59,571 bases of DNA from NCBI GenBank assembly GCA_027067055.1, contig JAMOMK010000104.1, forward strand, positions 1 to 59,571. The letters run 5' to 3'. Positions 56,982 to 59,571 of the stretch are shown piece by piece. The stretch's first letter is position 1. The number at the start of each line of letters is the position of its first letter. The translations under genes were made by a program, and so were the position numbers. The notes below the pieces were generated by a model. The model was given only the letters and a program-made list of their open reading frames with translations, made no database searches and was not told where the DNA came from. This DNA comes from Lysobacterales bacterium (GTDB lineage: Bacteria; Pseudomonadota; Gammaproteobacteria; Xanthomonadales; Marinicellaceae).

Positions 56982-57985
56982 ATTTTTTCTCCAAATAATG
57001 ATAGCATCATGGCTTTTTGTACGTGTAATCTGTTTTCGGCTTCTTCGATGGCAACACAATAATCGGCATCCATCACCGCATCGGTGGCTTTTATATTTCT
57101 TCGTAGCGGTAAACAATGAGAAAATTTGGCTTGATTCGTCATAGCCATTTTGTGTTCATCAACCATAAAATGCTGAAACTTACGCCGTTGTTTCCATTCT
57201 TCTTCTGGATTACCATAAAAAGGCAGTGCTCCCCATGATTTAGCATAAACGAAATCAGCATTTTTGTAAGCTTCTTCAATATCATGGCTAATGGTGAATG
57301 TGGAACCATTATCCGCACAATTTTGTTTGGCGAGTTCAACATACTTTTCATCCAAAATATAATCTTCATTCGGACAAAGCAAAGTCACATCCATACCAAA
57401 TTTTGAAGAAATTGAAATGCCTGAATTGGCAACTGCGGTATTTAATGGCTTGGGATGATAAGTCCACGTCATTAAGAATTTTTTATTTTGCACCACACCT
57501 AAATGTTTTTTCACTGTCATCATTAAAGCAAGCTCTTGACATGGGTGGGTAATGGTTTCCATATTGATAATCGGCACGCTTGCGTATTTTTTAAAAGCAT
57601 TAATAACTTTATCTTGTTTATCATCTTCCCAAGAGATAAATTTTGGAAAAGCACGTATGGCTATGGCATCCACATAAGTCGACAAAACAGCAGCCACTTC
57701 TTTGATGTGTTCCTCAGCATCGCCATCCATAACCACATTATTGTTAAACTCAATGCCCCAAGAATCTTTACCAGGTTGTAAAACCACGGCTATTCCACCG
57801 AGTTGCTGTATTCCTATTTCAAAAGATGTGCGTGTGCGCATAGAAGGATTAAGAAATAATAAAGCAAAAGATTTGTTTTTCAAGTTTTGATGAAAAGGAT
57901 TGTTTTTTAAGTCACCAGCAACAGTCAGCAAATCCTCTAGTTCAGACTTACTCCAGTTTTCAGTATTTATAAAATGTTTATGCAT
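56978..57985 (-). CDS. argF': N-acetylornithine carbamoyltransferase (argF')
   Basis: About 335 residues. It has the carbamoyl phosphate motif SMRTRTSFE and WTYHPKPLNTAVANS, HPCQELA, and SHCLPLRRNIKATDAVMD, which separate N-acetylornithine from ornithine carbamoyltransferases. The enzyme makes N-acetylcitrulline. It is a transcarbamylase characteristic of Xanthomonas and relatives and replaces ArgF/ArgI. The start is the ATG at 57985 after GTGGAGCG; a GTG twelve bases earlier is possible. It is the first structural gene of the operon, directly behind the leader attenuator. argG overlaps its stop. Confidence 0.92.
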   Translation of the reverse strand: MHKHFINTENWSKSELEDLLTVAGDLKNNPFHQNLKNKSFALLFLNPSMRTRTSFEIGIQQLGGIAVVLQPGKDSWGIEFNNNVVMDGDAEEHIKEVAAVLSTYVDAIAIRAFPKFISWEDDKQDKVINAFKKYASVPIINMETITHPCQELALMMTVKKHLGVVQNKKFLMTWTYHPKPLNTAVANSGISISSKFGMDVTLLCPNEDYILDEKYVELAKQNCADNGSTFTISHDIEEAYKNADFVYAKSWGALPFYGNPEEEWKQRRKFQHFMVDEHKMAMTNQAKFSHCLPLRRNIKATDAVMDADYCVAIEEAENRLHVQKAMMLSLFGEKI

Positions 57986-58025
57986 TTCTCGCTCCACGTT
58001 TTAGTTATTTAAGTGACAAAGCCAG

Positions 58026-58058
58026 AAACAAAAAAACCTGGCTTTTCACCAGGTTTTT
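58026..58058 (-). terminator. Leader terminator (attenuator) of the arginine operon
   Basis: Read on the minus strand: AAAAACCTGG (58058-58049), loop TGAAAAG, CCAGGTTTTT (58041-58032), then more T to 58030. It lies between the leader peptide stop (58087) and argF' (57985). Its 5' arm is also complementary to CGCCAGGTT inside the leader ORF (58109-58101), a candidate antiterminator. Confidence 0.85.
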
Positions 58059-58086
58059 AAAGAATTTGTTTTAATTAAAAATTAAA

Positions 58087-58206
58087 TCACAAGACCTCAC
58101 AACCTGGCGTATGGATACGTCGGCGTAAGCGTCGAGCAACAACAGACACACTTCCACAAATACTTGTGAAAATTGAAAAATCAGATTGTTGTTGTGTTGT
58201 TTTCAT
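58087..58206 (-). CDS. Arginine-rich leader peptide of the arg operon (39 aa)
   Basis: The ORF starts with ATG at 58206 and ends TGA at 58089-58087. It encodes a peptide whose second half carries RRLRRR (residues 25-30), five Arg codons out of six: CGA CGC TTA CGC CGA CGT. The remaining N-terminal part is polar and Gln/Ser-rich (MKTTQQQSDF). Position and composition are those of a leader peptide that stalls on uncharged tRNA-Arg. No strong ribosome binding site is seen. Antiterminator and terminator elements follow. It is too short to be a conventional enzyme. Inferred role: sensing charged tRNA-Arg. Confidence 0.7.
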   Translation of the reverse strand: MKTTQQQSDFSIFTSICGSVSVVARRLRRRIHTPGCEVL

Positions 58207-58328
58207 TTGTTAATTTTTAAATTGTTGAGTGAAGTCTAACAATCAATTTTTTTCAAAACAAGTCTTTTTTGATGAAAACCCATGAAAATGAGCAATTTAT
58301 AGATAATGACCTCAAACAATTTCTTAAA

Positions 58329-58369
58329 TTGACTTAAATCAAGGTCATAACAAGGCCTAAAACTATAAT
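58329..58369 (+). promoter_or_regulatory. FNR/Anr-type class II promoter of the porin gene
   Basis: TTGACTTAAATCAA (58329-58342) matches the FNR consensus TTGAT-N4-ATCAA in nine of ten positions. TATAAT lies at 58364-58369. Expected start point about 58376 puts the site centre at about -41, the class II activation position. It would activate under low oxygen. Confidence 0.55.
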
Positions 58370-58457
58370 GCACACATAGATAACTTAACTACATCTGACT
58401 CTTATTTTAACAAGCCAGATGGAAAAACAATAATTATTTTTAAAGAGAATAAATAAA

Positions 58458-59571
58458 ATGAAAAAAAGTATATTAGCCTTAGCCGTTTGTGGCTTATTAC
58501 AAACCGCAGGTGCATCTGCTGATGAAAGTAATAGTTTTTTTGATGCCATAAGTGATGGTGACTCAAATTTAATGCTCAGATACAGGTATGAATTTGTTGA
58601 TCAAGACGGGTTTGCCAAAAATGCCAATGCTTCAACATTGTTAACTCGACTTAACTACAAAACTAAAGCTTATAATGGCTTTACATTCTTTTTGGAAGCA
58701 GACAATGTAACCGAAGCATTTGGTGACAACTATAATTCTGGTGCAGGAAACTCCCCAGGTAACACACATTATCCCGTTGTTGCAGACCCACAAGGGACAG
58801 AAATTAATCAAGCTTGGTTCAACTATGCTTTTAGTGAAGGAAATGATGTGAAAGTTGGTCGCCAAAGAATAAACTTTGATAACCAACGTTTTATTGGTGG
58901 TGTTGGCTGGCGTCAAAACGAACAAACCTATGATGCAATTTCTGGCTCTTTTGATGTGTCAGGGTCTAAATTGTTTGTTTCTTATATTGATAAAGTTAAC
59001 CGTATATTTGGTGATGATGTTGCTGCAGGAAATCATGACAACTCAACTGTTTTAGCACATTGGTCTAATAAGTTTGATGATATTGGCAATTTATCTGTTT
59101 ATTATTATGATATTAACAATAAAGATGCTGCCGCCTTTTCAACAACAACATTTGGTGCGAAATTTGCAGGTAAAGTTAATCAATTTAATTATGGTGTTGA
59201 ATATGCAACACAGAGTGATGCACATAATAATTCCGTAGACTACAGTGCTAACTATTACCGTCTTGATGGTGGTTTCAAGCTAGAACCTGCAACAATTTAT
59301 GCAGGCTATGAAGTTCTTGGAGGTGATAGAAACAATGCAGGGTCTGCTTTTAGAACACCTTTAGCGACATTGCACGCCTTTAATGGCTGGGCAGATAAGT
59401 TTTTGGGAACTCCAGCAGATGGTCTTGAGGATTTTTTTATTGGAGCAAAAGGTGATATAAATGGCTTTAAATGGAATGCACTTTATCACACCTTTTCTGC
59501 CGAGGATTCATCACGTGATTTAGGAACAGAGTTTGATTTTACTATTGCGCATAAAGTAAATAAACATGTTT
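58458..59571 (+). CDS. Outer-membrane porin (alginate-export/OprD-like beta barrel), incomplete at window end
   Basis: The first 371 residues of a gene that runs past the window. Signal peptide 1-22 ends ASA-DE. The mature N-terminus, NLMLRYRYEFVDQDGF, is typical of barrel proteins of the alginate-export type. Long stretches with alternating hydrophobicity follow (VKVGRQRINFDNQRFIGGVGWRQNEQTYDA), and the GRQRINFDNQRFIG motif is common to that family. It would form a channel for small solutes; the exact substrate is unknown. Weak AGAGAA site before the ATG. It is transcribed divergently from the arginine operon and probably controlled by the FNR-type promoter. Confidence 0.75.
   Translation, partial: MKKSILALAVCGLLQTAGASADESNSFFDAISDGDSNLMLRYRYEFVDQDGFAKNANASTLLTRLNYKTKAYNGFTFFLEADNVTEAFGDNYNSGAGNSPGNTHYPVVADPQGTEINQAWFNYAFSEGNDVKVGRQRINFDNQRFIGGVGWRQNEQTYDAISGSFDVSGSKLFVSYIDKVNRIFGDDVAAGNHDNSTVLAHWSNKFDDIGNLSVYYYDINNKDAAAFSTTTFGAKFAGKVNQFNYGVEYATQSDAHNNSVDYSANYYRLDGGFKLEPATIYAGYEVLGGDRNNAGSAFRTPLATLHAFNGWADKFLGTPADGLEDFFIGAKGDINGFKWNALYHTFSAEDSSRDLGTEFDFTIAHKVNKHV

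Follow-up and report, generated by a model that had tools for sequence, protein, structure and literature searches.

A putative arginine-sensing leader-peptide attenuator upstream of argF' in a Lysobacterales bacterium and its relatives

In this study, we analyzed a stretch of 59,571 nucleotides (nt) from a Lysobacterales bacterium (contig JAMOMK010000104.1, positions 1 to 59,571; hereafter the window), in which a short open reading frame (ORF) rich in arginine codons and an intrinsic terminator precede argF', the gene of an N-acetylornithine carbamoyltransferase (AOTCase). Very probably, this leader controls the argF'-argG-argE'-argB-argC operon by ribosome-mediated transcription attenuation in response to arginine supply. 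Leader-peptide attenuation is textbook knowledge for the Trp, His, Thr, Leu, Ile/Val and Phe operons, and ArgR is the textbook regulator of arginine biosynthesis. An earlier note on this DNA had proposed that the logic of trp/his attenuation is applied here to arginine. Judged from sequence, this proposal is supported by the conservation of the leader, by the spacing of its elements and by the failure to detect ArgR throughout the family of the window.

Leader elements in the window

The leader region lies at positions 58206–58030 of the minus strand, on which all features described here are located, and comprises the ORF, an antiterminator segment and the intrinsic terminator. The ORF (58206–58087; MKTTQQQSDFSIFTSICGSVSVVARRLRRRIHTPGCEVL) has 39 codons, five of them for Arg, ends with a stop codon at 58089–58087 and is the proposed template of the sensing ribosome. 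Its putative sensor, RRLRRR, is encoded by codons 25–30 (58134–58117; CGA CGC TTA CGC CGA CGT). Still within the ORF follows the antiterminator segment CGCCAGGTT (segment 2; 58109–58101), whose pairing with the 5' arm of the terminator is conserved. The terminator hairpin AAAAACCTGG-TGAAAAG-CCAGGTTTTT (segments 3 and 4; 58058–58032) ends in a U-run of seven T (58036–58030), and its 5' arm is common to terminator and antiterminator: the part AACCTGGTG (58055–58047) pairs with CGCCAGGTT over nine positions, one of them G-U. On recheck, the coordinates that the earlier note had given were correct in every case checked, and the nine-position pairing was as it had described.

None of 200 shuffles folds as well as the 222-nt leader (z −3.2). 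One terminator was found in it, compared with a mean of 0.1 in shuffled sequences, and when the upstream sequence was shuffled 100 times, two shuffles reached its antiterminator score. A model of the leader has one strong match in its own genome (2e-24; the next is at 0.007), so the leader is single copy. Across the family, the strong matches of the model (E ≤ 3.8e-4) are 18 leaders of argF' and nothing else.

Downstream of the U-run, segment 5 (TCTGGCTTT; 58026–58018) can pair with the 3' arm of the terminator after read-through. This pairing was detected in 16 of the 18 family leaders (p ≤ 0.05) and in 0 of the 52 other leaders tested, and segment 5 may lock the read-through form. In some relatives segment 5 could, by eye, also pair with the Shine-Dalgarno sequence of argF'. 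Upstream of the ORF, TTGTTT-N17-TAGACT (58261–58256 and 58238–58233) was picked by eye as a candidate promoter; as weak evidence, likewise by eye, GTTAGACT precedes the leader in eight of ten leaders of the same genus. A promoter consensus scan did not pick the candidate site and found promoter-like sites no commoner than in shuffles, leaving a sigma-70 promoter unconfirmed.

Conservation of the leader and distribution of ArgR

Full-length argF' homologues number 18 in the 33 family genomes, and all 18 loci carry an Arg-rich leader ORF, within it a segment that pairs with the arm or loop of the terminator, and the terminator itself. In the alignment of these leaders, three Arg codons have invariant first and second bases and varying third bases. 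The rest of the peptide varies freely: when five equal-length leaders from the window's genus were compared pair by pair, the codon differences were 13 synonymous and 91 non-synonymous. That the Arg codons are kept while the remaining peptide varies fits the prediction of codon sensing.

A profile of the 18 argF' proteins matched 367 of the 398 order genomes at E ≤ 1e-60, at least six of these through the distant form of family f11 described below. Among named genomes, at least 80 argF' loci were found, including those of Marinicella, Xanthomonas, Stenotrophomonas, Lysobacter, Dyella, Rhodanobacter, Frateuria, Kangiella and SAR86. The regions upstream of AOTCase genes in the order, SAR86 and Kangiella, 86 in number after removal of L051–L059 and L068 (repeats of family genomes) and of L063 and L090 (without upstream sequence), were examined with a detector that has three requirements, namely a terminator, a competing segment that forms six or more pairs, and Arg codons at the right place in a short ORF. 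With R as the count of Arg within six codons, it accepted 81 of the 86 regions at R ≥ 2 and 75 at R ≥ 3. Acceptance among dinucleotide shuffles was 6/860 and 3/860, respectively, and among other windows of the same loci 26/4642 and 3/4642. A first version of the detector had missed six of eight Marinicella-type leaders and mispaired the other two, because their antiterminator pairs with the terminator loop; the rule was relaxed afterwards, and the control figures come from the relaxed version only. Applied to six attenuators of Escherichia coli, the detector found those of thr, phe, leu and ilv and missed trp and his. The regions missed at R ≥ 2 were L080, L085, L086, L097 and L107, and a leader is visible by eye in L080 and L085. 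In a second set of loci, partly from the same organisms, a leader was found in 28 of 35 loci outside family f11 and in none of five within it. Among the seven misses outside f11, L044 had 83 nt of upstream sequence only, L041, L048, L144, L146 and L147 contain an Arg-rich ORF by eye, and L152 has none. These counts confirm that the leader arrangement occurs far above chance. The earlier note had named conservation among relatives as a check: the Arg run and the mutually exclusive pairings are kept in all 18 family loci and, by the automatic rule, in 81 of the 86 regions.

The leaders are of different kinds. Those of SAR86 (L072, L080, L084, L087) are minimal, with 14 codons and an AGA CGG pair, to which L072 adds one extra Arg, and their antiterminator lies at the stop codon or just after it. 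The core A..A[AS]GMTSRARRP is found in Xanthomonas, Stenotrophomonas, Pseudoxanthomonas, Lysobacter, Dyella, Rhodanobacter, Frateuria and families f2, f3, f4 and f12; the leader of the window belongs to the other kind, without this core. The set was gathered by searching for [MLV]TSRARR, so TSRARR is conserved by construction; the conservation of Ala-6, Ala-3 and Met0 does not follow from the search. In the 42 distinct core sequences, the two Ala outside the search motif (Ala-6 and Ala-3) are invariant and show synonymous changes, and the predicted RNA structure is slight. Met0 is present in 54 of 55 loci, L100 reading ITSRARR. A degenerate form of the core pattern occurs exactly once in 44 of 45 genomes and is absent from the other, versus one match in the 45 genomes for a reversed control pattern. 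Wherever coordinates of argF' were listed, the match lies just upstream of this gene. Taken together, this suggests that selection acts on the Xanthomonas-type peptide itself.

The exclusive pairings were followed in an alignment of 32 distinct rows (73 loci), from which eight Marinicella-type rows with a different register were excluded. Five antiterminator positions pair with the 5' arm of the terminator in 32/32 rows, with CG/TA and GC/AT/CG exchanges that the 3' arm follows, and three outer positions pair in 23, 27 and 25 rows, counts that are biased by the segment having been located through its pairing. A test free of this bias used 52 Xanthomonas-type leaders and set the segment at a constant distance of 29 nt from the first Arg codon; 79% of the positions then pair, versus 21–51% at 34 other offsets. 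The antiterminator reached p ≤ 0.05 in 56 of the 81 leaders.

ArgR (PF02863) was found in none of the 33 family genomes; the same search detected it in 8 of 14 control genomes, among them that of E. coli. Within the order, ArgR was found in 8 of 398 genomes, all of family f11, and in none of the other 390. Five f11 genomes (L154–L158) encode a distant form of the carbamoyltransferase (E 1e-67 to 1e-75), with argR about 1.4–1.5 kb away from its gene. A search confined to the 400 nt directly upstream of the carbamoyltransferase gene found no leader in these five, and the stretch resembles the end of another gene. Leader and ArgR were not found together, and the leader apparently stands in for the usual ArgR repressor.

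Proposed switch and alternative readings

In the mechanism that we propose, the 39-codon ORF would be translated during transcription of the leader by RNA polymerase. Under a shortage of charged tRNA-Arg, the translating ribosome would stall on the Arg codons and leave CGCCAGGTT free. The free segment could then capture the emerging 5' arm of the terminator, in which case no terminator would form and the operon would be transcribed. When arginine is plentiful, the ribosome would reach the stop codon and mask CGCCAGGTT, the terminator would form, and the transcript would end after about 200 nt. We infer the promoter, the stalling, the kinetic nature of the switch and the direction of the response.

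The spacing fits the two ribosome positions assumed in the earlier note, one stalled at the Arg codons with the segment free and one at the stop codon covering it. The distance from the first Arg codon to the competing segment is 19–33 nt in 76 of the 81 leaders, under a rule that searched only within 80 nt. Masking at the stop codon would be partial in the window's genus, where a ribosome with the stop codon in its A site, extending 12–15 nt upstream of its P site, would hide no more than 4–7 of the nine bases of CGCCAGGTT. It would be fuller in the 61 of 81 leaders in which the competing segment starts no more than 15 nt before the stop codon. In folding with a ribosome in place, which the earlier note had also called for, a stall of the window leader at the first Arg codon lowered the equilibrium probability of the terminator from 1.00 to 0.61.

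Several observations weigh against the proposed switch. With the window leader stalled at the last Arg codon, the terminator probability is 0.99. Among the 81 leaders, a stall at the first Arg codon lowers it by more than 0.05 in only 27, and to below 0.5 in 14; compared with a ribosome at the stop codon it is unchanged (within 0.05) in 50, and the remaining four (L100, L112, L114, L124) were scored in the wrong reading frame. Permutation of the segments among Xanthomonas-type leaders leaves the pairing as high in 1057 of 5000 cases, the leaders being alike and some rows out of register, and covariation within the genus is weak, with shuffles matching the score in 42/500 cases for the antiterminator and 31/500 for the terminator. 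No 1:2 protector hairpin was established, with a weak consensus in Xanthomonas-type cores only. Three of the 86 loci (L086, L097 and L107) lack a leader even by eye, and the matches listed in the open literature included no expression data for arginine starvation or excess. The same folding of E. coli attenuators showed no drop for thr, leu and ilv and a full drop for phe. As thr, leu and ilv also lack the drop, we presume that kinetics decides here, as it does in the proven attenuators. We rejected equilibrium folding around a blocking ribosome as a test of the switch, since it is uninformative for most leaders and for E. coli thr, leu and ilv, which remain unchanged.

A published RNA maps to the same locus. 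The Rfam family RF02242, Xoo5, matches the leader in 19 of the 37 loci searched in relatives (3/17 and 16/20), namely in Xanthomonas, Stenotrophomonas and Pseudoxanthomonas; its model has no match in the window leader. sRNA-Xoo5 is reported as a small RNA (sRNA) of 124 nt, with its 5' end determined by rapid amplification of cDNA ends and its 3' end by cloned sequence (PMC3039613). It lies between PXO_00354 and PXO_00353, the latter encoding an N-acetylornithine carbamoyltransferase; the words 'arginine', 'leader' and 'argF' are absent from the main text of that report (PMC3039613). The model begins 2 nt before the leader ATG. As the ATG is thus 2 nt from the mapped 5' end, the Xanthomonas-type leader ORF is probably translated as a leaderless mRNA. 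Two points at the other end do not fit termination at the U-run: the modelled 3' end, followed in L096 (2728–2851) and other Xanthomonas-type loci, precedes the terminator arm by 5–10 nt in eight of nine loci and by 26 nt in the ninth, and a terminator-ended transcript would be about 155–160 nt long (175 in the ninth locus) versus 100–130 nt on Northern blots. The candidate explanation that Xoo5 is the RNA ended at the terminator was rejected, since its reported 3' end precedes the terminator. Xoo5 is RNA from the attenuator leader, and its published end is no proof of termination at the U-run; we infer that trimming or cleavage of the attenuated transcript gives rise to it, incomplete cloning being another candidate cause of the early 3' end.

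These data also bear on a different reading, in which the short transcript acts mainly in trans as an sRNA and the leader ORF is incidental or has a dual function. Xoo5 is filed in Rfam as 'Gene; sRNA', it was cloned and seen on Northern blots as discrete bands of about 130 and 100 nt, the shorter alone in later growth (PMC3039613), and its reported 3' end differs from the predicted terminator; in Sinorhizobium, a leader peptide and its transcript are reported to act in trans (PMC7298713). However, what is conserved, namely the Arg codons, the antiterminator, the terminator and the position before argF', characterizes a cis attenuator, and much of the RNA varies between families by eye. Xoo5 is also reported to be Hfq-independent, and deletion mutants of seven of the eight sRNAs, which may or may not include Xoo5, were without obvious phenotype (PMC3039613). 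We therefore consider a mainly trans-acting role improbable. A small-protein gene with its own terminator and no relation to argF' control would account for a complete ORF followed by a terminator; such a gene is disfavoured and very hard to reconcile with a peptide that varies across families while conservation extends to the Arg run, the ORF-internal antiterminator and the spacing, or with strong leader-model matches that, within the family, are argF' leaders only. Control of the terminator by a T-box, a riboswitch or ArgR has precedents, as T-boxes (PMC1262725) and ArgR (PMC5343134) control arginine genes elsewhere. Here, however, an Rfam scan of positions 57000–58900 gave no family at gathering score (T-box, riboswitch and Xoo5 included), and with the result of the ArgR search described above this control is next to inconceivable.

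Potentially, the leader ORF could also sense arginine through its nascent peptide rather than through codon starvation, the arrested ribosome masking or freeing the antiterminator. SpeFL and TnaC are examples of arrest peptides. The Xanthomonas-type core, kept at the amino-acid level through many synonymous changes and with little predicted RNA structure, speaks for such a sensor. In the window's genus, however, the peptide outside the Arg run varies freely, as the synonymous and non-synonymous counts above show, and the peptides of SAR86, Kangiella and Marinicella have little in common beyond their Arg codons, so we regard nascent-peptide sensing as unlikely for the system as a whole. It is tempting to speculate that two forms of leader exist, one with bare Arg codons as in the window and one with an arginine-dependent arrest peptide in Xanthomonas and its allies, which jointly replaced ArgR in nearly the whole order; we put this forward tentatively, as a possibility with the odds against it. 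For the window, codon-based attenuation by arginine is the reading that we prefer.

The arginine operon and known attenuators

The structural genes behind the leader make, by their profile matches, the amino acid that is proposed to be sensed. The first of them, argF' (57985–56978), matches NF003384 with 531 bits (cut-off 288), and the best solved chains for its product are N-acetylornithine carbamoyltransferases (E 9e-147). The next gene is argG, encoding argininosuccinate synthase (56981–55779; TIGR00032, 291 bits, cut-off 268; an internal ATG was chosen as start by eye). Between argG and argE', inside the operon, lies a Doc/Fic-like gene (55729–54731; TIGR01550, below cut-off). The acetylornithine deacetylase-like gene argE' (54734–53643) scores 342.5 bits with NF006439, just under the cut-off of 345. 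The operon continues with argB, an acetylglutamate kinase with a C-terminal extension (53740–52337; NF003387, 475 bits, cut-off 426), and argC, an N-acetyl-gamma-glutamyl-phosphate reductase (52340–51390; TIGR01850, 295 bits, cut-off 234). Downstream of argC are two overlapping small ORFs (49699–49026), which we take to resemble a toxin-antitoxin pair (PIN-domain and Phd-like). In one genome of the same genus (G020, 99% complete) neither an argF' match nor a strong leader match was found; it has possibly lost arginine synthesis.

Like the thr, phe, leu, ilv, trp and his attenuators of E. coli, the window leader combines a short ORF with codons for the end product, an antiterminator in or just after this ORF, an intrinsic terminator and a biosynthetic operon. 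Unlike them, it concerns arginine and the acetylated AOTCase route, has no 1:2 hairpin shown and possesses, in the family, the additional segment 5. As far as sequence can tell, it is a leader with the testable defining features of leader-peptide attenuators, a demonstrated 1:2 hairpin excepted. The 2004 survey of proteobacterial attenuators by Vitreschak and colleagues reportedly omits arginine.

Several systems resemble the window leader in part. The Xoo5 family in Rfam lies on the Xanthomonas-type arg leader, but is filed as an sRNA, and its model stops short of the terminator. In the speF leader of Salmonella, orf34 contains consecutive Arg codons at which ribosome pausing responds to arginine, but it controls ornithine decarboxylase via Rho, access to the ribosome-binding site and RNase G rather than via an intrinsic terminator of arginine biosynthesis (PMC6386406). 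In Staphylococcus aureus, the upstream ORF rbfL senses arginine limitation with rare Arg codons, but blocks translation of a biofilm regulator, and the accessible text describes no terminator switch (PMC13009471). Pseudomonas carA is a gene of the arginine/pyrimidine pathway with a leader peptide or suspected attenuation, which is, however, attributed to pyrimidines (PMC4997734). RNA-level control of arginine genes is described for T-boxes only in the accessible part of PMC1262725. Among the matches listed in the open literature, subscription papers lying outside this coverage, no peptide-leader attenuator of an arginine biosynthetic operon was found. The mechanism of attenuation is known, and its use for arginine biosynthesis appears to be new.

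If confirmed, the attenuator would show what the locus of the Rfam sRNA Xoo5 does. The conserved MTSRARRP core poses the question whether codon starvation or an arrest peptide is at work. Confirmation would also fill the arginine gap among leader-peptide attenuators, and would explain how arginine synthesis is controlled in an order in which ArgR is mostly not found.

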